64,000 nucleotides of DNA from the NCBI GenBank assembly GCA_029213025.1, contig JARGOZ010000019.1:1-64000 (forward strand). Direction: 5' to 3'. Shown here one piece after another: positions 9,973-28,221 of this stretch. The position numbers and the translations under genes are program-made. The notes under the pieces were generated by a model that ran no database searches, was not told the origin of the DNA, and was given only the letters and a program-made list of their open reading frames with translations. How positions within the stretch are numbered: the stretch's first letter is position 1; every line of letters begins with the position of its first letter. The stretch comes from Verrucomicrobiales bacterium. GTDB lineage: Bacteria > Verrucomicrobiota > Verrucomicrobiia > Verrucomicrobiales > DEV007.

Positions 9973-10941
9973 TTAGTTCGCAGCGGTGGCGACGGCACTT
10001 TCAAGCGCACCCGTGCAGCTGCTCCCCGCACCGGCGGTGCAGCCAAGACAGTGATTGGCGGTGATGATTTCGTATTCACCAATGGTCTGCGGCGTCACAT
10101 CCCATAGGAACAGGTCTTTGCCATTGCGGAGTTGCATCTTGAGCATTTGATTGAAGTCGCAATCGAAGACTTCGCCTGCCATACCGATGTTGATGGTGCT
10201 GCGACACATCAAGTCATCGACCGTAGAGGGATTGAAGCTGTTCGCCAGCAGATCCATGTAGGCATCCCACTGACCGTGCTCGCGCAACTCTGTGGCGAAG
10301 CGGGCGACAGGTAGATTCGTAATGGTGAAAAGCCGGGTGAATTCTATACCGTAGCGGTCCCGCAATTCACGCTTGTATTCGACTTCGAGTTCCGTCTGAT
10401 TCGGCGGCAGCTTTGGGCCGATCGGATTATAGACCAGAGTCAGAGGTAAACGGGTGCCATAGCCAACAGCGTTGAGTTTGCGCAGGGCGCGAATGCTTTT
10501 TAAAAAGACACCGTCACCGCGTTGTTCGTCCACGTTTTCCTCCAGATAGCAGGGCAGCGAGGCAACCACTTCGACTTCATGCCGCGCGAGGAACTCAGGC
10601 AGGTAAGCGTGGGATTTCGTTTCGATGATCGTTAGATTGTTCCGGTCGATGACATGCGCTCCCACACTGCGCGCGGTCTCGACGAAATAGGTAAAGAACT
10701 CGCTCAACTCCGGTGCACCTCCCGTGATATCTACCGTTTCAGGTTTGTGTTCTTTGATCCATGCACCGACGCGCTTCGCTGTGGACTCATCCATCATCTC
10801 GGTGCGGTGGGGACCGGCGTCGACATGGCAATGCGTGCAGGTTTGGTTGCACTTGCGTCCCACGTTTATCTGAAGGGTCTTAAAAGTCCCCCGTGAAAGC
10901 GGGACTCTGTGGGCGTTAAGTTGTTGTTGGAATCGGTTCAT
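9973..10941 (-). CDS. arsS: Arsenosugar biosynthesis radical SAM protein ArsS
   Basis: A 322-residue radical SAM enzyme with the 4Fe-4S motif CNQTCTHC (C31, C35, C38) after a short N-terminal strand. The C-terminal part has a second Cys-rich region, including CRSTINIG, GEVFDCDFNQ and CLGCTAGAGSSCTGA, as in the radical SAM/Cys-rich family that joins methylated arsenic to the adenosyl moiety of SAM during arsenosugar synthesis. ATG at 10941 was chosen because a longer frame would overlap arsM, whose stop is at 10946. The tight arsM-arsS-arsC order supports the assignment. Confidence 0.9.
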   Translation of the reverse strand: MNRFQQQLNAHRVPLSRGTFKTLQINVGRKCNQTCTHCHVDAGPHRTEMMDESTAKRVGAWIKEHKPETVDITGGAPELSEFFTYFVETARSVGAHVIDRNNLTIIETKSHAYLPEFLARHEVEVVASLPCYLEENVDEQRGDGVFLKSIRALRKLNAVGYGTRLPLTLVYNPIGPKLPPNQTELEVEYKRELRDRYGIEFTRLFTITNLPVARFATELREHGQWDAYMDLLANSFNPSTVDDLMCRSTINIGMAGEVFDCDFNQMLKMQLRNGKDLFLWDVTPQTIGEYEIITANHCLGCTAGAGSSCTGALESAVATAAN

Positions 10942-10945
10942 GGTC

Positions 10946-12115
10946 TTAACAGCAAGTTCCGTTCTTCTCGTCGCAGCACTGGGCCGCCTCGGTGGTTGCA
11001 TCGTAGTCCCGTCCTTTTGTTTCGCGCGGGTCGCGTAAAACAGCTTCCGAACAGGTGAAGGGTTTCGCCTCGTTCAACGGGATGGCTTCCAGAGGCTCGA
11101 TAAATTCGAAATGCCCCGCGTAGGGTGCTTTTTGATAGAGGTTAAAAGTCTTGTCGCAAACCGCGTAGCGCTTGCCCCGTTCCATAGCGTGGTTGTCGTC
11201 GTCGAGCACCTTGAGGAACGGTCCCTTGTAGATCACTGCCTGATTGCGCTCCAGACAGGGTCCCTGCTTGCCTTTCCACGCCTGCACCGTGACGCTGCGA
11301 AACTCGATGCCCTCCACCGTTTGCCAGGGGGCACTATCGCGTTTCAGAATTTCAATACCGTAAAAACCGGCGTCCTCGAAGGCCTTTAGAAAACCGTCCT
11401 CGGTGAAGGCGCCACTAATGCAGCCGCTCCACAGGACGGGATCACATTGCATGTCGGCCGGCACCTCCTCGTCGCTCACTATGTCGGAAATCACCGCGCG
11501 TCCGCCGACCTTTAGCACCCGGAAGATCTCATCGAACAGTTGTCGCTTATGCCGGGACTCGACGAGGTTAAGAACGCAGTTCGACACAACTACATCAACT
11601 TCCCCGGACTTCACTAGCGGATGTTTTTTCCGTAGATCCTCAGTGAATGTATCGGCGGCGAGCAGGGACGCGGCATCCTGTATAGGACGCTTCTCAAGTT
11701 CAGCATCGAGGATCTCCAAATCGAGGGCGAGATCCTGGATACGACCCTTGCCGAATTCTACGTTGGCATAGCCGAGCCGGTCGGCCACGATCGGAGCGTT
11801 GCGTCGGGCCACCTCAAGCATGTTATCCGTCATGTCCACACCGATCACCCTTCCGTTTTTCCCCACGACCTGCGAGGCGATAAAGCAGATCTTGCCTGTT
11901 CCGCTGCCGAGATCCAGGACTGTCTCGCCGGGCTTTAGGTATTTCGACGGATCGCCGCAGCCGTAGTCCTTCTCGATAACCTCCGAAGGAATCACTTCGA
12001 GATATTCAGGATCGTAATCAACCGGACAGCACAGGGCGGCTTCCGGTGCCTGAGCGGCGGCGGCGTAACGGTCGCGGGTCGCGTGTTCCGATAACATGGT
12101 AATTGACGAATTCAT
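10946..12115 (-). CDS. arsM: Arsenite S-adenosylmethionine methyltransferase
   Basis: A 389-residue class I methyltransferase of the arsenosugar-type ArsM group. It has the SAM loop LDLGSGTGK (residues 67-75), conserved cysteines near the N-terminus (CC at 29-30, C53) and in VVSNCVLNL, and a Cys-rich C-terminus (CCDEKNGTCC). The extra C-terminal domain (about residues 275-389) is typical of ArsM proteins coupled to ArsS. It methylates As(III) before sugar attachment. It is first in its operon, and a candidate sigma-dependent promoter lies about 50 bp upstream (12163-12192). No arsR repressor gene is adjacent. Confidence 0.9.
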   Translation of the reverse strand: MNSSITMLSEHATRDRYAAAAQAPEAALCCPVDYDPEYLEVIPSEVIEKDYGCGDPSKYLKPGETVLDLGSGTGKICFIASQVVGKNGRVIGVDMTDNMLEVARRNAPIVADRLGYANVEFGKGRIQDLALDLEILDAELEKRPIQDAASLLAADTFTEDLRKKHPLVKSGEVDVVVSNCVLNLVESRHKRQLFDEIFRVLKVGGRAVISDIVSDEEVPADMQCDPVLWSGCISGAFTEDGFLKAFEDAGFYGIEILKRDSAPWQTVEGIEFRSVTVQAWKGKQGPCLERNQAVIYKGPFLKVLDDDNHAMERGKRYAVCDKTFNLYQKAPYAGHFEFIEPLEAIPLNEAKPFTCSEAVLRDPRETKGRDYDATTEAAQCCDEKNGTCC

Positions 12116-15839: not shown

Positions 15840-16580
15840 ATGAAATTGAAAACCATTTATCTATTTGTCGTCATCATCTCTGCTCTACTCGTTTCCTCGC
15901 TTCGGGCCGATGACTGGGTCGAACAATACGACGAACTCCTGGGGAAATACGTAACGTCAACGGGGGTTAAATATAGGGCATGGCATGGGAATTCAGCCGA
16001 TCGAGAAGCGTTGTCCAGAGTGGTGTCCTCCATCGGTAATGAAAAATTGAGCGGTAAATCCGAAAGCGAAAAGCTCGCCTTTTATTTGAATGCGTACAAT
16101 GCCTGGATCCTTCAGCGAATCCTTGATACCTATCCAACGGCTGGCCCCGGCGGTGGAGGGCTCATTGGCAGAGGTCGCTTTTTCAAAGCGAACAATCTCA
16201 AGGTTGCGGGAAACAAGACCAGTTTTACCGCTCTCGAAAATGACGTGATCCGAACGGAATTCAATGAACCCCGAATTCATTTTGCCTTGAACTGTGCCAG
16301 CGAAAGCTGTCCTCCACTCGCCGGGTCTGCGTTTCGCGGTGCAACCCTCGACTCTGTGCTTACCACACTCGCCTCGAATTTCATCAACCGGAATCCTAAA
16401 GGGGTGGCTTTCTCCGGTGGTGAAGCCAGGATCTCGAAAATATTTGATTGGTATGACTCTGATTTTCAGGCTGAAGGAGGGGTGCTATCATACATCAACA
16501 AGCATAGGAATTTGAAAATCCCTAATGGAGCTAAAGTTTCATTTCAAACTTATAACTGGAGTTTGAACGAAGCGAAATAG
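15840..16580 (+). CDS. DUF547 domain secreted protein
   Basis: A 246-residue exported protein with a signal peptide ending near LRADDWV. The DUF547 core is seen in LAFYLNAYNAWILQRIL, FFKANNLKVAGNKTSFTALEND and RIHFALNCASESCPPL, where the conserved Asn-Cys-Ala-Ser-x-x-Cys-Pro motif lies. The biochemical role of DUF547 is not established; cysteine-protease-like folds have been proposed. DUF547 genes are commonly found near arsS-type and TVP38/oxidoreductase genes, and the same neighbourhood is seen here. A candidate promoter lies upstream. Confidence 0.85.
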   Translation: MKLKTIYLFVVIISALLVSSLRADDWVEQYDELLGKYVTSTGVKYRAWHGNSADREALSRVVSSIGNEKLSGKSESEKLAFYLNAYNAWILQRILDTYPTAGPGGGGLIGRGRFFKANNLKVAGNKTSFTALENDVIRTEFNEPRIHFALNCASESCPPLAGSAFRGATLDSVLTTLASNFINRNPKGVAFSGGEARISKIFDWYDSDFQAEGGVLSYINKHRNLKIPNGAKVSFQTYNWSLNEAK

Positions 16581-20383: not shown

Positions 20384-21100
20384 ATGAATACAGCAGAACA
20401 AATCACCCAACCGAAACGCAGAATCCCCTGGAAAAATATCGTCGTTGCACTTTTTGTCATCGGAACGATCGGGGGCTTGCTTTACGTATTACCAATAGGT
20501 GAATACCTGACGAAATCGATTTCGTGGATTGAGACCCTCGGGGTTTGGGGGCCAATCGCCTTTATCGGAATCTATATTTTGGCTGTCGTGTTCTTTGTGC
20601 CCGGCTCTCTTTTAACCGCTGCATCAGGGACGATCTTCGGTGTTGTGTGGGGGGCCGCTTATGTCTCTATCGCATCGACATTGGGGGCAACTTTGGCTTT
20701 TCTGATCGGCCGCTATCTTGCTCGAGGCTGGGTCGAAAAGAAGATTGCCGGGAACGAGAGCTTCAGTGCAATCGACAGTGGCGTAGCAGAACAGGGTTGG
20801 AAAATTGTCGGACTGACCCGCCTGTCACCCGTGTTCCCGTTTTCTTTACTGAACTATGCCTACGGAATCACAAAAGTTAAATTAAGACACTACGTCCTCG
20901 TCTCGTGGATAGGTATGTTTCCCGGCACCCTGTTATATGTCTACATCGGTTCGCTGGGGAAAGCTGCGACTGAGTCGGGAAGCAAAAGCCCTGCCGAATG
21001 GGCAATGTATGGAGTCGGACTGCTGGCGACCGTTGTAGTAACGATATACATCACAAAGATCTCCAGGAAAGCCCTTCAGCAGAAAATTGAAGAAAAATAG
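20384..21100 (+). CDS. TVP38/TMEM64 (SNARE-associated, DedA-like) membrane protein
   Basis: A 238-residue polytopic inner membrane protein. The family core is FVPGSLLTAASGTIFGVVWG (about residues 75-95), ATLAFLIGRYLARGW, and GLTRLSPVFPFSLLNYAYG, followed by a C-terminal TM segment. DedA-superfamily proteins act in lipid-carrier flipping or membrane homeostasis. TVP38 domains are known to occur fused to FAD-dependent disulfide reductases of the type encoded at 26239, and the two occur separately here within 6 kb. It is preceded by a candidate promoter shared with arsM and DUF547. Confidence 0.85.
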   Translation: MNTAEQITQPKRRIPWKNIVVALFVIGTIGGLLYVLPIGEYLTKSISWIETLGVWGPIAFIGIYILAVVFFVPGSLLTAASGTIFGVVWGAAYVSIASTLGATLAFLIGRYLARGWVEKKIAGNESFSAIDSGVAEQGWKIVGLTRLSPVFPFSLLNYAYGITKVKLRHYVLVSWIGMFPGTLLYVYIGSLGKAATESGSKSPAEWAMYGVGLLATVVVTIYITKISRKALQQKIEEK

Positions 21101-21354: not shown

Positions 21355-22698
21355 ATGAAAAATACATGCACAGACATCAACGCCTTTATGTCTGGTCTCC
21401 GGAAACGCAACCCCGGCCAACGGGAATTCCACGACGCTGTTCAGGAAGTGGCTTCGGACATCATACCATTCCTCGCCGATCATAAAGAATTCCAGGGAGA
21501 ATGCCTACTGGAGCGCCTTACCGAACCTGACCGGGTCATTTCATTTCGCGTCAGCTGGGTCGATGACGAGGGCAATGTTCGCGCCGATCGCGCCTGGCGG
21601 GTTCAGTTCTGCAATGCGATCGGCCCCTACAAAGGCGGGATGCGATTTCACCCTACTGTGACTGAAAGCGTTCTGAAGTTTCTCGGTTTCGAACAAATCT
21701 TTAAAAACAGTCTGACGGGTCTGCCCATGGGCGGTGCCAAGGGCGGTTCCAATTTTAATCCCAAAGGCAAGAGCGACGGCGAAGTGATGCGCTTTTGCCA
21801 ATCGCTGATGATCGAACTTCATCGCTATATAGGTCCGGATACTGATGTGCCCGCCGGTGACATCGGAGTCGGCGCTCGCGAGGTCGGGTATCTGTTCGGA
21901 AAATACCGGCGCCTCTCCAACACATTTACCGGAGTATTAACTGGCAAAGGGCTGAATTTCGGAGGCAGCATCGGCCGTAAGGAAGCGACCGGTCACGGCG
22001 TCGTCTACTTCATGCGCGAAATGTTGGCAACCAGAGGCGATGGGATCGAAGGCAAGACCGCAGTCGTTTCCGGATCGGGCAACGTTGCACTTTATTGTAT
22101 AGAGAAACTGATCCAGCTCGGCGCAAAACCCGTTACCGCCAGCGACAGTTCCGGCTTTATCTACGACCCTAATGGTATCGACGAGGAAAAGCTGGCTTTC
22201 CTCAAAGATCTGAAAGAAGTCCGTCGCGGCCGAATCGAGGAGTATGCCGAAAAATACGGATGTACTTTCTCCGTCGGCCGCCCGTGGGCAGCGAAAGCCC
22301 ATCTGGCATTCCCTTGTGCGACCCAAAATGAAATTACTGAAGACGACGCGAAAACACTAATCGCCAACGGACTCATGGCACTGGCCGAAGGGGCCAACAT
22401 GCCCTGCGAACCGGGAGCTCAGCACCTGCTAAGGCAGAGCGTCCTCTACGCTCCGGGGAAGGCATCGAACGCAGGTGGTGTAGCGGTTTCCGGTCTCGAA
22501 CAAAGCCAGAATGCTATGCGTATCAATTGGTCGCTTGAAGAGGTGGATCAACGTCTGCAGATCATCATGAGCGATATTCACGGGAAATGTAGCAAGTACG
22601 GAAAGCACGCTAACGGTGGTATCGACTACGTGCGCGGGGCAAACATTGGCGGGTTCACGAAAGTTGCCAGTGCGTTGCAGGAATGCGGTGTTGTTTAG
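21355..22698 (+). CDS. gdhA: Glutamate dehydrogenase (NADP-type)
   Basis: A 447-residue hexameric-type glutamate dehydrogenase converting 2-oxoglutarate and ammonium to glutamate. Characteristic parts are YKGGMRFHPTVTESVLKFLGFEQIFKNSLTGLPMGGAKGG with the catalytic Lys in GGAKGG, DVPAGDIGVGAREVGY, and the Rossmann loop VSGSGNVA near residue 240. The length matches the small NADP enzymes. It starts a run of co-oriented genes (acetolactate synthase 30 bp downstream). A repeat pair lies in its leader. Confidence 0.93.
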   Translation: MKNTCTDINAFMSGLRKRNPGQREFHDAVQEVASDIIPFLADHKEFQGECLLERLTEPDRVISFRVSWVDDEGNVRADRAWRVQFCNAIGPYKGGMRFHPTVTESVLKFLGFEQIFKNSLTGLPMGGAKGGSNFNPKGKSDGEVMRFCQSLMIELHRYIGPDTDVPAGDIGVGAREVGYLFGKYRRLSNTFTGVLTGKGLNFGGSIGRKEATGHGVVYFMREMLATRGDGIEGKTAVVSGSGNVALYCIEKLIQLGAKPVTASDSSGFIYDPNGIDEEKLAFLKDLKEVRRGRIEEYAEKYGCTFSVGRPWAAKAHLAFPCATQNEITEDDAKTLIANGLMALAEGANMPCEPGAQHLLRQSVLYAPGKASNAGGVAVSGLEQSQNAMRINWSLEEVDQRLQIIMSDIHGKCSKYGKHANGGIDYVRGANIGGFTKVASALQECGVV

Positions 22699-22728: not shown

Positions 22729-24369
22729 ATGAAAGCATCCGACCTGTTTGTAAAAGCTCTCGAAAACGAGGGCGTGGAATATATCTTCGGCATTCCCGGC
22801 GAAGAAAACCTCGACTTCCTCGACTCCCTGTCGCGCTCACCGATCAAATTGATCCTTACCCGTCACGAACAGGCCGCCGGATTTATGGCAGCGACCCTCG
22901 GCCGCCTCACCGGCAAGGTCGGAGTTTGTCTTTCGACCCTGGGACCCGGGGCGACAAATCTCGTTACCGCAGCCGCCTATGCGCAACTGGGTGGTATGCC
23001 GATGCTCATGGTTACCGGGCAAAAGCCGATTAAGAGTAGTAAGCAGGGGCAGTTTCAGATCATTGATGTAGTGGACATGATGCAGCCCATCACGAAATAC
23101 AGCCAGCAAATCGCAAGTGGAGATAATATACCCAGCCGGATCCGCGAAGCCTTCCGGCTCGCTGCCGAAGAGAAGCCGGGCGCGGCCCATTTGGAGCTGC
23201 CCGAAGACATCGCTGCCGAGGAAACCAACCGCAAGCCAATCGACGAAAGCCTCGCTCGCCGCCCTGTCGCCGAAAGTAAAGCGGTAGCCAGCGCCATTAA
23301 TTTGCTAACAGCAGCGAAGCACCCGCTACTCGTCATCGCAGCCGGCGCAAACCGGAAACTGACCGCCACTCAATTACGGGAATTTGTTGATCGGCAGCGC
23401 ATTCCTTTCATCACAACGCAGATGGGGAAAGGCGTCGTCGATGAACGCCACGAGCTGTTTCTCGGCAATGCAACCCTGTCCGCAGGAGACTTTCTCCACC
23501 GCGCTATCGAAAAGGCTGATGTGATCGTCAATATCGGGCACGATGTCGTAGAGAAGCCTCCATTCTTTATGGACAAAGGTGAGCGCCAGGTTATCCACGT
23601 AAATTTCAACTCAGCGGCAGTCGATCCTGTCTACTTCCCACAGATCGAAGTCATCGGAGATATAGCCAACAGCATTTGGCAAATCAATGAAGGGCTTGTT
23701 CCGCAGGAAAACTGGGACTTCGAATGGTTTATGAAATGCCGTGCCGCCACTGAAGAGCACATCAGCGAAGGCAGCGATGCAGCGGAGTTCCCGGTCCGCC
23801 CGCAGCGCCTCGTTGCCGATGTCCGTTCCGTCATGCCGGACAACGGGATCATCGCCCTTGACAACGGGGTGTATAAAATCTGGTTCGCCCGCAATTACAA
23901 AGCTCACAGGCCAAACACTGTCCTCCTCGACAACGCGCTCGCCTCGATGGGTGCCGGACTTCCTTCCGCTATCGCAGCAAAAATCGTACACCCCGACCGC
24001 CCTGTGATCGCGATTTGCGGAGATGGAGGTTTTATGATGAATTCGCAGGAGTTGGAGACCGCCGTTCGGCTCGGGCTGGATCTCATCGTTTTGATACTAA
24101 ACGACTGTGCCTACGGCATGATCAAATGGAAGCAGGCGCACATGCACTTTCAGGACTACGGCCTCGATTTCAAAAATCCCTGCTTCGTAAAATACGCAGA
24201 CAGTTATGGCGCGACCGGGCATCGCCTCGCAGCAACCGATGAACTCGCCCCGCTGATCCGCAATTGTCAGCAACAGGGCGGGGTTCACCTCATCGATATA
24301 CCAATCGACTACTCGGAGAATGATCGCATTCTAAATGTGGAACTACCACAGCGCAGCGCCCAACTCTAA
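22729..24369 (+). CDS. Acetolactate synthase large subunit (AlsS-like)
   Basis: A 546-residue thiamine-diphosphate enzyme that condenses pyruvate to acetolactate. The catalytic Glu is in LTRHEQAAGFMA (E47), the substrate loop TLGPGATNL follows, and the ThDP motif is GDGGFMMNSQELETAVRLGLDLIVLILND (about residues 430-458). No regulatory small subunit gene is adjacent, which is typical of the catabolic AlsS form. The next gene, an aldehyde dehydrogenase, begins 15 bp later. The alternative is a related ThDP carboligase. Confidence 0.83.
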   Translation: MKASDLFVKALENEGVEYIFGIPGEENLDFLDSLSRSPIKLILTRHEQAAGFMAATLGRLTGKVGVCLSTLGPGATNLVTAAAYAQLGGMPMLMVTGQKPIKSSKQGQFQIIDVVDMMQPITKYSQQIASGDNIPSRIREAFRLAAEEKPGAAHLELPEDIAAEETNRKPIDESLARRPVAESKAVASAINLLTAAKHPLLVIAAGANRKLTATQLREFVDRQRIPFITTQMGKGVVDERHELFLGNATLSAGDFLHRAIEKADVIVNIGHDVVEKPPFFMDKGERQVIHVNFNSAAVDPVYFPQIEVIGDIANSIWQINEGLVPQENWDFEWFMKCRAATEEHISEGSDAAEFPVRPQRLVADVRSVMPDNGIIALDNGVYKIWFARNYKAHRPNTVLLDNALASMGAGLPSAIAAKIVHPDRPVIAICGDGGFMMNSQELETAVRLGLDLIVLILNDCAYGMIKWKQAHMHFQDYGLDFKNPCFVKYADSYGATGHRLAATDELAPLIRNCQQQGGVHLIDIPIDYSENDRILNVELPQRSAQL

Positions 24370-24384
24370 CACATCACCAATACC

Positions 24385-25812
24385 ATGCTCGAACCACAAT
24401 ATCCCTACTACCTCGCAAACGAGGCCTGCCAACCCAATGCCGATCTCGAAGTCACCGACAAATTCACCGGCGAGGTCGCGACCCGCGTCGCACTGGCTGA
24501 TGCCAAAGCAATCGACGAGGGAATCTCATGGACAGTGAAAGCCGCCGGAGAAATGGCGCGCATGCCCGCCTACGAACGTCAGGAGATCCTCAACCACTGC
24601 GTAAATCGATTCACCGAGCGCTCCGAAGAACTTGCACAAGCACTATGTGTAGAAGCCGGCAAGCCGATCAAAGACAGCCGTGGCGAAGTCTCCCGACTGA
24701 TCGATACCTTCCGCATCGCCGCCGAAGAATCGGTGCGAATGCACGGAGAGGTGCAGGAACTGGAAATCGCCAGGCGAGCTCGCGGCTATCGCGGCATGTG
24801 GAAGCGCGTTCCCATCGGGCCGTGCTCATTCATCTCGCCATTTAATTTTCCCCTTAATCTCGCCGCTCACAAAGTCGCCCCCGCGATCGCCACAGGATGC
24901 CCCTTCGTCTTGAAGCCTGCAAGCCGCACCCCGATAGGCGCTCTTATTATCGGCGAGACTCTGGCCGAGACCGATTTGCCGAAAGGCGCCTTTTCCATAC
25001 TTCCCTGCAGTCGTGACGGAGCAGATTTGTTTACTACCGACGAGCGATTCAAACTACTCAGTTTCACCGGATCCCCCGGAGTGGGTTGGAATCTAAAAGC
25101 AAACGCCGGGAAGAAAAAAGTCATCCTCGAACTCGGCGGGAACGCAGCCGTGATCGTCGATCAAGACGCCGATCTCGACGACGCGGTGGAGCGGATCATT
25201 TTCGGCGCCTTCTACCAATCCGGCCAAAGCTGTATCGGTGTCCAGCGCATTCTTATTCACGAAAAGCTTTACGATCAATGTAGGGAAAGGCTGATCGCAG
25301 CCACGAAGGTTCTCCGCTCCGGCGATCCCAAAGACGAAAACACTTTCATCGGACCAATGATCGCGGAGAGCGAAGCCGAGCGACTCGAGAACTGGATCGG
25401 CGAAGCCGTCGCTGCCGGTGCACAGGTCCTTTGCGGAGGCAAACGCAATGGAGCAATGCTAGAAGCGACCCTCCTCGAAGGCGTCTCACGCGAGCAGAAA
25501 ATCTGCGCCGAAGAGGCCTTCGGCCCGGTTGCTATCCTGAGTTCCTTCAGCGGTTTTGATACCGCTTTAGCAGAGGTAAACGATTCCAAATTCGGCCTGC
25601 AAGCCGGCATTTTTACCCGCGATCTCTACAAAGCCCATCAAGCGTGGGACACCCTTGAAGTCGGCGGCGTCGTCATCGGAGACGTGCCATCGTGGCGGGT
25701 CGACAACATGCCTTACGGCGGCGTGAAAGACAGCGGGCTCGGGCGGGAAGGCATCCGCTTCGCCATGGAAGACATGACCGAAATCCGCAACCTCGTCATC
25801 CGCTTTCCATAA
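24385..25812 (+). CDS. NAD(P)-dependent aldehyde dehydrogenase
   Basis: A 475-residue aldehyde dehydrogenase. The proton-relay Asn is in SPFNFPLNLA (N154), the general base in ILELGG (E249) and the catalytic Cys in GQSCIGVQR (C283). The C-terminus PYGGVKDSGLGREG is the usual family end. It resembles lactaldehyde or phosphonate-type aldehyde dehydrogenases more than betaine aldehyde dehydrogenase, but the substrate cannot be fixed by eye. It lies in the gdhA-alsS operon, immediately before the malic enzyme remnant. Confidence 0.87.
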   Translation: MLEPQYPYYLANEACQPNADLEVTDKFTGEVATRVALADAKAIDEGISWTVKAAGEMARMPAYERQEILNHCVNRFTERSEELAQALCVEAGKPIKDSRGEVSRLIDTFRIAAEESVRMHGEVQELEIARRARGYRGMWKRVPIGPCSFISPFNFPLNLAAHKVAPAIATGCPFVLKPASRTPIGALIIGETLAETDLPKGAFSILPCSRDGADLFTTDERFKLLSFTGSPGVGWNLKANAGKKKVILELGGNAAVIVDQDADLDDAVERIIFGAFYQSGQSCIGVQRILIHEKLYDQCRERLIAATKVLRSGDPKDENTFIGPMIAESEAERLENWIGEAVAAGAQVLCGGKRNGAMLEATLLEGVSREQKICAEEAFGPVAILSSFSGFDTALAEVNDSKFGLQAGIFTRDLYKAHQAWDTLEVGGVVIGDVPSWRVDNMPYGGVKDSGLGREGIRFAMEDMTEIRNLVIRFP

Positions 25813-25814
25813 TT

Positions 25815-26205
25815 ATGAGTCCCGATAACAACTACGCCGAATGCAGCCTCATCATCCAAGAGCAGCTCAGAGGAAAAATCGGTGCCTACAGCAATATGCC
25901 GGTCACTACTACCGGCGATCTATCCATTGCCTACACCCCGGGAGTGGCCCGCCCCTGCGAAGCCATCACTGCAAACGCGGCGCTGACTCGCAAGCTCACC
26001 ATCAAACACAATTCTGTAGCTGTCGTTACCCGAAATCATGCCTGATGAAGCCCGCCGCGCCGGTGCTGCCGTAGTAGGAACCGGTCGGATCGATTTTCCT
26101 AATCAGATCAATAACGTTCTCGCCTTTCCCGGCATCTTCCGTGGAGCCCTCGATGCAGAGGCTGCGAGAATCGCCGGAGCGTTTGCCAAAGCCTACATAA
26201 ATTAA
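25815..26205 (+). pseudogene. NAD-type malic enzyme remnant, middle deleted
   Basis: The N-terminal 70 or so codons (MSPDNNYAECSLIIQEQL, then GDLSIAYTPGVARPCEAI and KHNSVAVVT) match the start of NAD-type malic enzyme. The frame then jumps by one base straight into its C-terminus: [40 protein letters not shown], ending at 26205. The malic and NAD-binding domains, about 270 residues of the usual 400, are missing. Both ends are intact and the junction lies at gttAccCGaaatc near 26032. It looks like one internal deletion in a formerly functional gene in this operon. Confidence 0.88.
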
Positions 26206-26238: not shown

Positions 26239-28221
26239 ATGTCAGACGAAAACACCAACCTCGGAGATGCCTTTGCCGAAGGCGAACTCGAAACAATCAT
26301 CGCAAATCTGCGCGAAAAATTTACTATCAAGGATCGCACCCACGGCTTTCCCAGAAAGAACTACCCGAAATCTTTCGTTGGTAGGGAAGCTGTGAGCGTA
26401 ATCGTCTCCGAAGGTCTCGCCAACTCGCGGGAGGACGCCGTCCAGCTCGGCGATATGCTGCTCAATGAAGGTGTCTTTCAACATGTGATGAAGGAGCACT
26501 CATTCAAAGACGAAAAGCTCTACTACCGTTTCAAAGAAGACCAGGACCACGGCGAAACGGCCAAAGATTTTGAAGGCAATCCAGTGAGTTGGGCCGACTT
26601 CCTCGCCCCTTTTTCCGGTAATCCAGCGACGAGATCCCTCCAACCGAACATCCCGGAACGCGATCCCGATCTCGCAAACTTTGCCGCTGATGAACTTGAT
26701 GCCTGCGGAGTCGAACCGCTCGACGAACACAACATCAAGCTGCTCGACAACACCCATCCCCGCGAATGGATCGACCCTGAGCCGGATGGGAAATACAATC
26801 TCGTGGTAATCGGTGCCGGGGCCGGAGGTCTGGTGACAGCGGCAGGCGCTGCCGGTGTCGGTGCCAAAGTCGCGTTGATCGAATCGCATCTACTCGGGGG
26901 TGATTGCCTCAATGTCGGTTGCGTGCCGTCGAAAGCATTAATCAGCGCCGCGCGGGTTGCTGCGACGGCGCGTCGGGCCGGTGAATTTGGTGTCAACACA
27001 GGCGAGGTGACCGTCGATTTCGCGAAAGTGATGGAACGACTGCGGAAGCTTCGCGCAAATATCTCTCCCGTCGATTCGGCGGACCGATTCAGTAAAGAAT
27101 TGGGCGTCGATGTCTTCATCGGGCGGGGAAAATTTACCGGTCCCGACACGGTCGAAGTAAATGGCAAAACTCTGAAATTTGCCAAAGCCGTCGTCGCGAC
27201 CGGAGGCAGCGCCGCAGTCCCGCCAATCGAAGGACTCGCCGAAGCTCCCTACCTGACCAATGGAAACATCTTCAACCTCACCGAACTGCCTGCTCGGCTC
27301 GGGATCATCGGCGCGGGACCAATCGGTATGGAGTTGGCTCAATGCTTCCAAAGATTTGGATCCGAGGTATCGGTATTTTCCCGCCGGGACGGGATCCTCC
27401 CGAAAGAGGATCCCGAAGCCGCAAAAATCGTCGAGGATTCGATGCGTCGTGACGGAGTCAACTTCATACTCAACAGCACCTACCGGAAAATCATCAGCGA
27501 CGGCCCCGGAAATCCCATCACCGTAGTTTACGAACAGGCCGGTACCGAGCACACGATCGAGTTCGATGCTATACTTGTCGCGACGGGCCGCAAACCCAAC
27601 GTCGAGGGTATGGGGTTGGAGAAAGTCGAGGTGGAATACGACAAGCGAAACGGTATCAAAGTCGATGACAACCTGCGCACCACCAACTCCCGAATTTTCG
27701 CAGTCGGCGATGTGGCCAGTAAGTATCAGTTTACCCACATGGCCGATTTCATGGCTAGAATCGTGATACGCAACTCCCTGTTCTTCGGTCGCGACAAATT
27801 CTCCGATCTTCTCATTCCGTGGGCGACCTACACCGATCCCGAAGTCGCCCATGTCGGACTATATGAAGCCGACCTGAAAGAACAGGAGATCGAATACGAA
27901 ACATTCACCAAAACTTTCGAACATCTCGACCGCGCCATCCTCGAAGGGGAGACCGAAGGGTTCGTCAAAATCCATGTAGAGAAAGGCAGCGATAAAATCC
28001 TCGGTGCCACCATCGTAGGTTCCCATGCCGGTGACATGATCAGTGAAATCAGCGTGGCCATCAAAGCCGGAATGGGGCTAGGAACCCTCGCAGGAGTCAT
28101 CCACCCTTACCCCACCATCGCCGAAGCGATTCGCCAAAGCGGGGATCTCTACAGCCGAACCCGCCTGACGCCCATGGTGCAAAAGATTTTCAATCGACTT
28201 ACCGCCCTGCAGAGAGCATAA
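26239..28221 (+). CDS. DEP domain fused to FAD/NAD(P) disulfide reductase
   Basis: A 660-residue two-part protein. Residues of about 18-98 form a DEP-like domain: FTIKDRTHGFPRKNYPKSFVG, NSREDAVQLGDMLLNEG and FQHVMKEHSFKDEKLYYRF. Residues of about 185-660 form a mercuric-reductase-like flavoprotein: FAD loop IGAGAGG (192-197), redox disulfide GGDCLNVGC (C223, C228), NAD loop IIGAGPIGMELAQ and C-terminal HPYPT. The linker ADELDACGVEPLDEHNIKLL and WIDPEPDGKYNLVVIGAG is typical of the unfused relatives. No mercury-specific C-terminal cysteine pair is present. Substrate unknown. Confidence 0.85.
   Translation: MSDENTNLGDAFAEGELETIIANLREKFTIKDRTHGFPRKNYPKSFVGREAVSVIVSEGLANSREDAVQLGDMLLNEGVFQHVMKEHSFKDEKLYYRFKEDQDHGETAKDFEGNPVSWADFLAPFSGNPATRSLQPNIPERDPDLANFAADELDACGVEPLDEHNIKLLDNTHPREWIDPEPDGKYNLVVIGAGAGGLVTAAGAAGVGAKVALIESHLLGGDCLNVGCVPSKALISAARVAATARRAGEFGVNTGEVTVDFAKVMERLRKLRANISPVDSADRFSKELGVDVFIGRGKFTGPDTVEVNGKTLKFAKAVVATGGSAAVPPIEGLAEAPYLTNGNIFNLTELPARLGIIGAGPIGMELAQCFQRFGSEVSVFSRRDGILPKEDPEAAKIVEDSMRRDGVNFILNSTYRKIISDGPGNPITVVYEQAGTEHTIEFDAILVATGRKPNVEGMGLEKVEVEYDKRNGIKVDDNLRTTNSRIFAVGDVASKYQFTHMADFMARIVIRNSLFFGRDKFSDLLIPWATYTDPEVAHVGLYEADLKEQEIEYETFTKTFEHLDRAILEGETEGFVKIHVEKGSDKILGATIVGSHAGDMISEISVAIKAGMGLGTLAGVIHPYPTIAEAIRQSGDLYSRTRLTPMVQKIFNRLTALQRA

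Follow-up and report, generated by a model that had tools for sequence, protein, structure and literature searches.

DEP domains have been studied mostly in eukaryotic signalling, and in autoinhibited P-Rex1 and Epac they act as lids. Such domains, and reductases of the kind treated here, have been described in connection with membranes: the tandem DEP of DEPTOR is stated in excerpts of one paper to bind phosphatidic acid (PMC8439649), animal GPR155-type transporters carry a DEP domain according to parts of another (PMC9330825), and COG0398 DedA proteins, proposed phospholipid scramblases, are described in excerpts of a third (PMC10127716) as having their commonest fusions with an oxidoreductase of the present kind, TVP38 being fused to such reductases in other lineages.

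The window, i.e., the whole 64-kb stretch of DNA that was analysed, encodes a flavoprotein disulfide reductase that has a DEP domain fused at its N-terminus (DEP-FAD, Table 1). Its reductase half resembles the FAD-containing oxidoreductases of NCBIfam NF004991 (PRK06370.1-3), since residues 156-659 fill nearly the whole model (6-508 of its 509 positions) and score 755 bits where the cut-off is 620, but the protein adds a DEP domain and a linker, and has S381-R382 where 16 of 18 aligned relatives carry an acidic residue at position 381. It shares the kind of reductase and the kind of TVP38 partner with the TVP38/TMEM64 (COG0398 DedA)-oxidoreductase fusions, whereas in the window the reductase is fused to DEP and TVP38 has a gene of its own. 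By sequence and predicted fold this is the same domain as in DEPTOR, P-Rex1, Epac, LYCHOS and Dishevelled, although no eukaryotic DEP protein among the sequence and fold matches listed is named an oxidoreductase. The MscS-DEP and small DEP proteins of cyanobacteria are likewise bacterial, with DEP domains 37-49% identical to that of the window depending on the stretch aligned, yet none of their 37 reading frames matches the reductase, and a second-helix tryptophan found in 7/7 cyanobacterial rows is missing from all four known fusions.

Table 1. Positions of DEP-FAD, its parts and neighbouring genes in the window (loci are labelled L and genomes G, followed by a number)
Feature	Position	Strand	Basis or remark
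arsS (9973-11001, over cut-off) and ArsM-like methyltransferase (10946-12115, under cut-offs)	9973..12115	-	profile search
DUF547 protein	15840..16580	+	DUF547 genes also near DEP-FAD in L004, L005
Separate TVP38/TMEM64 (VTT domain) membrane protein, recurrent genomic partner	20384..21100	+	VTT_dom 2.3e-31
NADP-specific glutamate dehydrogenase	21355..22698	+	passes NADP-specific model; also L004, L005, L072
Acetolactate synthase (PRK08322)	22729..24369	+	also in L004
Aldehyde dehydrogenase	24385..25812	+	no model over cut-off among matches listed
Probable malic enzyme gene remnant	25815..26202	+	N- and C-terminal fragments in separate frames, middle part absent
DEP-FAD, DEP domain fused to flavoprotein disulfide reductase, 660 aa	26239..28221	+	ORF, Pfam, NCBIfam
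DEP domain, residues 29-98	26323..26532	+	Pfam PF00610, fold
Conserved linker, residues 111-184: W(A/S)DFL, PERD, PLDEHN..HPxxW blocks	26569..26790	+	alignment
FAD and NAD(P) binding domains (Pyr_redox_2), residues 186-503; S381-R382 cofactor signature	26794..27747	+	Pfam, alignment
Redox-active CLNVGC, C223 and C228	26905..26922	+	alignment
Dimerisation domain (Pyr_redox_dim), residues 526-633; HPYPT with Tyr624	27814..28137	+	Pfam, alignment

Domain layout and cofactor signature of DEP-FAD

The reading frame runs uninterrupted from ATG to stop, and Pfam, fold and alignment agree with the earlier note in placing a DEP domain before a flavoprotein disulfide reductase that is complete and has C223 and C228; the 18 Pfam families listed for the whole protein include no VTT domain. 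The Pfam DEP profile, proposed there as a check, matches well above its cut-off of 32.7 bits (E 8.5e-18, 64.5 bits; 68.8 bits when residues 1-114 are searched alone), and the top PDB sequence relatives of the region are DEPTOR DEP domains (E 3.3e-24), with P-Rex1, LYCHOS and Epac also among the sequence relatives with solved DEP domains. A structure model of the domain on its own (residues 12-106, alignment of 11 rows, pLDDT 77) is likewise predicted to have the DEP fold: its best Foldseek match is 7dkl (DEPTOR, 1.4e-07), with 37 matches at E<=0.001, and its best VIA match is P-Rex1 (Z 13.9, rmsd 2.2, 92 aligned), the first 38 rows of the VIA ranking being entries of DEP-containing proteins, among which we take the GATOR1/DEPDC5 entries to belong, and the 39th not. 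A low-complexity variable tail, which had to be considered for this region, is ruled out, as the first 150 residues of the window protein are 46% identical to those of L004/L005 and 56% to those of L006. The core residues F46, G48, E50, H82, H87, F89, K90, Y96 and F98 are invariant in two alignments (10/10 and 11/11 rows). Profile matches and predicted fold thus confirm that the window protein has a true DEP domain.

Bacterial DEP domains are not unique to DEP-FAD, and DEP is not a eukaryote-only module: it was found in 19 of 244 cyanobacterial genomes. The 37 cyanobacterial frames (identical domains removed, some frames cut by locus ends) comprise 13 that match the MscS part of L009/L012, 11 that match the short N-terminal region of L013 and 13 that match neither. 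MscS-type channels with a C-terminal DEP are seen at L009 3925-5880 and L012 8363-10291 (Pfam on L009 only), and a tandem DEP pair follows a short N-terminal region with no Pfam match at L011 3317-4147.

Between the two halves, the PLDEHN..HPxxW block of the linker is common to the DEP clade and unfused relatives, and the W(A/S)DFL block is found in the DEP clade only; all four fusions begin with MS, and their linkers have, besides that block, one reading PERD or PDRD. The full-length structure model is poor (pLDDT 50) and gives no basis for placing the DEP domain on the dimer.

In the reductase half, the FAD and NAD(P) glycines, C223, C228 and Y624 are invariant in 23/23 homologues, and Y338 is kept in 21/23. 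The score falls below the cut-off of the dihydrolipoyl dehydrogenase model TIGR01350 (393.9 against 408.8 bits). Residues 381-382 are S-R in all five DEP-clade rows, while in the 18 other relatives residue 381 is E (15), D (1), V (1) or T (1) and R382 is never found. Since the mercuric reductase 5x1y has an arginine aligned with R382, and NADH enzymes usually carry an acidic residue at the cofactor site, this signature suggests that the DEP clade may use NADPH in place of NADH. In total, 23 positions separate the clade from the other 18 relatives. An adjacent Cys-Cys pair in the NAD(P) domain, at the place aligned with window residues 411-412, is present in 13/18 non-clade relatives and in 0/5 DEP-clade rows.

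Distribution of the fusion and its probable gain and loss

The fusion is rare, occurring as four proteins in three Verrucomicrobiota genomes: in the window, in L006 (the same sequence as G415:C335 and L063, with G415 belonging to another genus of the window's family) and as two paralogues, L004/L007 and L005/L008, in G320, a member of another family. DEP is intact and in frame in all of them, and the window's genome has a single DEP. Counting in each case the genome searched from, DEP-carrying genomes amount to 2/387 in the phylum sample, 2/74 in the family, 1/384 in the class and 1/6 in the order of G320. A scan of genome contigs that relies on two short peptide patterns gave 49 matching stretches; relatives are encoded in 10 of them (3 verrucomicrobial and 7 cyanobacterial loci). 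Neither the N-terminus nor the full alignment gave a relative in scans of viral contigs, and DEP had no match in plasmids or phages; with the full protein as query, the best 5 of 76 phage records align to the reductase half only (32-35%). An assembly artefact is ruled out, because the same fusion with its conserved linker is found in three assemblies, and the neighbourhood is partly repeated in two of them, the third fusion contig (L006) having only 3.8 kb.

A tree of the reductase halves of 23 proteins joins the four fusions in a single clade (100/100) with L078, a locus from the window's genus that has no similarity to DEP and whose catalytic half remains at about 81% identity. The N-terminal stretch of L078 retains WADF, which is seen in just 5/23 rows (the fusions and L078), so that L078 appears to have lost its DEP, the WADF being a probable scar. 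One gain and one loss would be the simplest account of this history; the tree alone requires two changes, and as the fork within the clade is weak (88/63), it does not fix their order. The fusions also form one clade in a DEP-only tree (100/99), in which the nearest cyanobacterial DEP is poorly resolved. Identity among the four is 47-64% for DEP, 53-73% for the linker and 72-82% for the reductase half. Directly upstream of L078 lies a 326-aa reading frame for an apparent multi-spanning membrane protein.

Neighbouring genes and the separate TVP38

The earlier note was right that TVP38-reductase fusions exist elsewhere, as stated in excerpts of PMC10127716 and as seen in Burkholderia glumae, where such a fusion protein is encoded, and that the TVP38 of the window, which would belong to COG0398, is a separate protein (Table 1). 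A TVP38 gene was found in 13 of 22 fetched NF004991-family neighbourhoods, several of them only a few kb long, as well as in the window; nine have none, including the full 19.5-kb L062 and L081. In Pseudanabaena TVP38 adjoins the reductase. Three of the 13 TVP38s (L069, L070 and L073) belong to a distant branch. The TVP38 tree is mostly unresolved, and in it the TVP38s from the DEP clade do not come together. The further suggestion that DEP may replace the TVP38 fusion, the two alternating between lineages, found no support: 11 of 19 unfused reductase loci also have a separate TVP38. It is therefore more likely that TVP38 already had its own gene when the reductase acquired DEP.

Other genes in the 22 neighbourhoods, many of which are short contigs, were DUF547 (7), glutamate dehydrogenase (3), ArsS (3), malic enzyme (2) and acetolactate synthase (1), the references for malic enzyme, one DUF547 and DUF3047 coming from L004 itself; the window adds one each to the tallies of TVP38, glutamate dehydrogenase and acetolactate synthase, while its DUF547 and arsS genes lie about 10 and 15 kb upstream of DEP-FAD. 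In L004 these genes follow one another: TVP38, malic enzyme, glutamate dehydrogenase, acetolactate synthase, DUF547, DUF3047 and DEP-FAD. The malic enzyme gene is intact in that cluster, as opposed to the probable remnant in the window, of which the N-terminal piece matches Pfam malic below the cut-off (E 0.0003, 21.1 against 23.1 bits) and the C-terminal piece was matched by eye to the L004 enzyme. Promoter and terminator scans gave no more than shuffles, and the DUF547 protein of L004 has no solved relative by sequence. Plants have proteins with glutaredoxin, DEP and DUF547 in a single chain, which would match DEP-FAD beside DUF547; this parallel is unproven, and no passage bearing on it was found in the literature consulted.

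Candidate functions of the fusion and its reductase family

The reading we prefer, and in which we place even confidence, is that of a homodimeric dithiol reductase that depends on NADPH and that DEP keeps at the membrane, close to TVP38. NADPH would reduce FAD, which would then reduce the C223-C228 disulfide, and the resulting dithiol would reduce a substrate, either the disulfide of a small thiol or a species of metal or metalloid. The two DEP domains of a dimer would bind a phospholipid or a partner in the membrane and in this way keep the enzyme on the inner side of the cytoplasmic membrane, most likely close to the separately encoded TVP38. We infer the dimer, the use of NADPH, the docking and the partnership with TVP38; the domains and their recurrence, the genomic link with TVP38, the cofactor signature and the missing DEP of L078 were observed directly. 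Membrane targeting by DEP is plausible, since DEPTOR binds phosphatidic acid (as stated in the excerpts cited above), cyanobacterial DEP domains sit on MscS-type channels and the reductase family is linked to TVP38; the completeness and conservation of both halves and the NADP-specific glutamate dehydrogenase of the cluster also count in favour of the preferred reading. Against targeting stands the lack of net positive charge in the DEP regions (-6 to 0 over residues 16-105 of the four fusions), with the hairpin stretch at +3 to +6, and so basic, in three of them and neutral in the fourth. The greater divergence of DEP than of the flavoprotein, the absence of DEP from L078 even though a TVP38 gene is retained there, the nine neighbourhoods lacking TVP38, the three distant TVP38s and the failure of the TVP38 tree to group those of the DEP clade count against the preferred reading as a whole. 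In DEP-FAD there is a straightforward way to ask whether the membrane-adaptor use of DEP is more portable than the roles it has in signalling.

Instead of a membrane anchor, DEP may be a regulatory lid that folds on the flavoprotein and gates the active site, membrane binding being secondary or absent. The P-Rex1 and Epac domains, from entries titled autoinhibited, are among the closest folds to the DEP model, and the long linker, conserved among the four fusions and with its clade-specific WADFL block, would suit a docking segment; but a DEP-flavoprotein contact is not seen in structure, the full-length model being too poor, and L078 keeps its catalytic half well with no DEP. We regard a lid as rather unlikely. 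The loss in L078, where only the scar is kept, together with the patchy occurrence in the family and the divergence of DEP relative to the catalytic half, would also fit a weakly constrained passenger, i.e., one chance fusion kept in few genomes and now being lost. Such a passenger is hard to reconcile with the invariant DEP core and with a domain intact and in frame in the window, G415 and both G320 paralogues, and we consider it quite unlikely. That the protein is a mercuric reductase with a targeting domain is highly improbable, and this identity was rejected: mercuric reductases are among the solved relatives (best E 2.4e-82), the CxxxxC motif is shared, and Tyr624 and Tyr338 align with tyrosines of 5x1y, but the MerA model TIGR02053 gives 410.6 bits, below its cut-off of 454.45, and the C-terminal cysteine pair that MerA carries is absent, the only cysteines being at 156, 223, 228 and 369, with none after residue 369 of the window protein and none in the last 20 residues of any of the 23 rows.

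A role in arsenosugar/arsenolipid synthesis is compatible with the membrane-held dithiol reductase we prefer: the enzyme may reduce methylated arsenic species for ArsS at the membrane, with DEP and TVP38 positioning it where arsenic-containing lipids form. The presence of NF004991 tracks arsS, strongly so at the genome level. ArsS was found in 33/34 cyanobacterial genomes over the NF004991 cut-off and in 7/64 others (98 genomes, p 4e-18), in 33/34 against 7/23 among the 57 of at least 2.5 Mb (p 6e-08), and in 18/20 against 16/38 in the window's family (58 genomes, p 6e-04), p-values which ignore kinship and come from related genomes, so that the tests are not independent, and from a search that scored just part of the candidates in each genome. 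Four of the seven cyanobacterial ArsS genomes outside the first group have NF004991 matches just or well below the cut-off (518-610 bits). Gene order points the same way, being TVP38, reductase, arsM, TVP38, arsS in Pseudanabaena, while two arsenosugar glycosyltransferase genes lie near the TVP38-reductase fusion of B. glumae and each of the two arsS genes in the window's genome lies on a contig that also has an NF004991 gene. On the other hand, G320 (86% complete), with its two fusions, has no ArsS match, and the DEP clade therefore seems not to need ArsS; the arsS of the window is far from DEP-FAD, three genomes (G459, G389 and G408, the last with a fragment of 96 bits) have the reductase and lack a full ArsS, and no arsenic gene was seen near the Variovorax relative. 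We hold this role of the enzyme to be unlikely. The more elaborate idea that the DEP clade is a membrane-docked, NADPH-switched branch of an arsenic-lipid reductase family working with a scramblase-like TVP38, in which DEP would read a lipid or TVP38 and bring the dithiol centre to a membrane-bound substrate, is very unlikely to be right in full.

As the uncharacterised NF004991 reductase and its TVP38 neighbours are tied to arsS, their function is testable in cyanobacteria. The window's genome has two arsM-like/arsS pairs, one in the window (9973-12115) and the other at L062 6168-8308, where the genome's unfused paralogue of the reductase lies, each on a contig with an NF004991 reductase.
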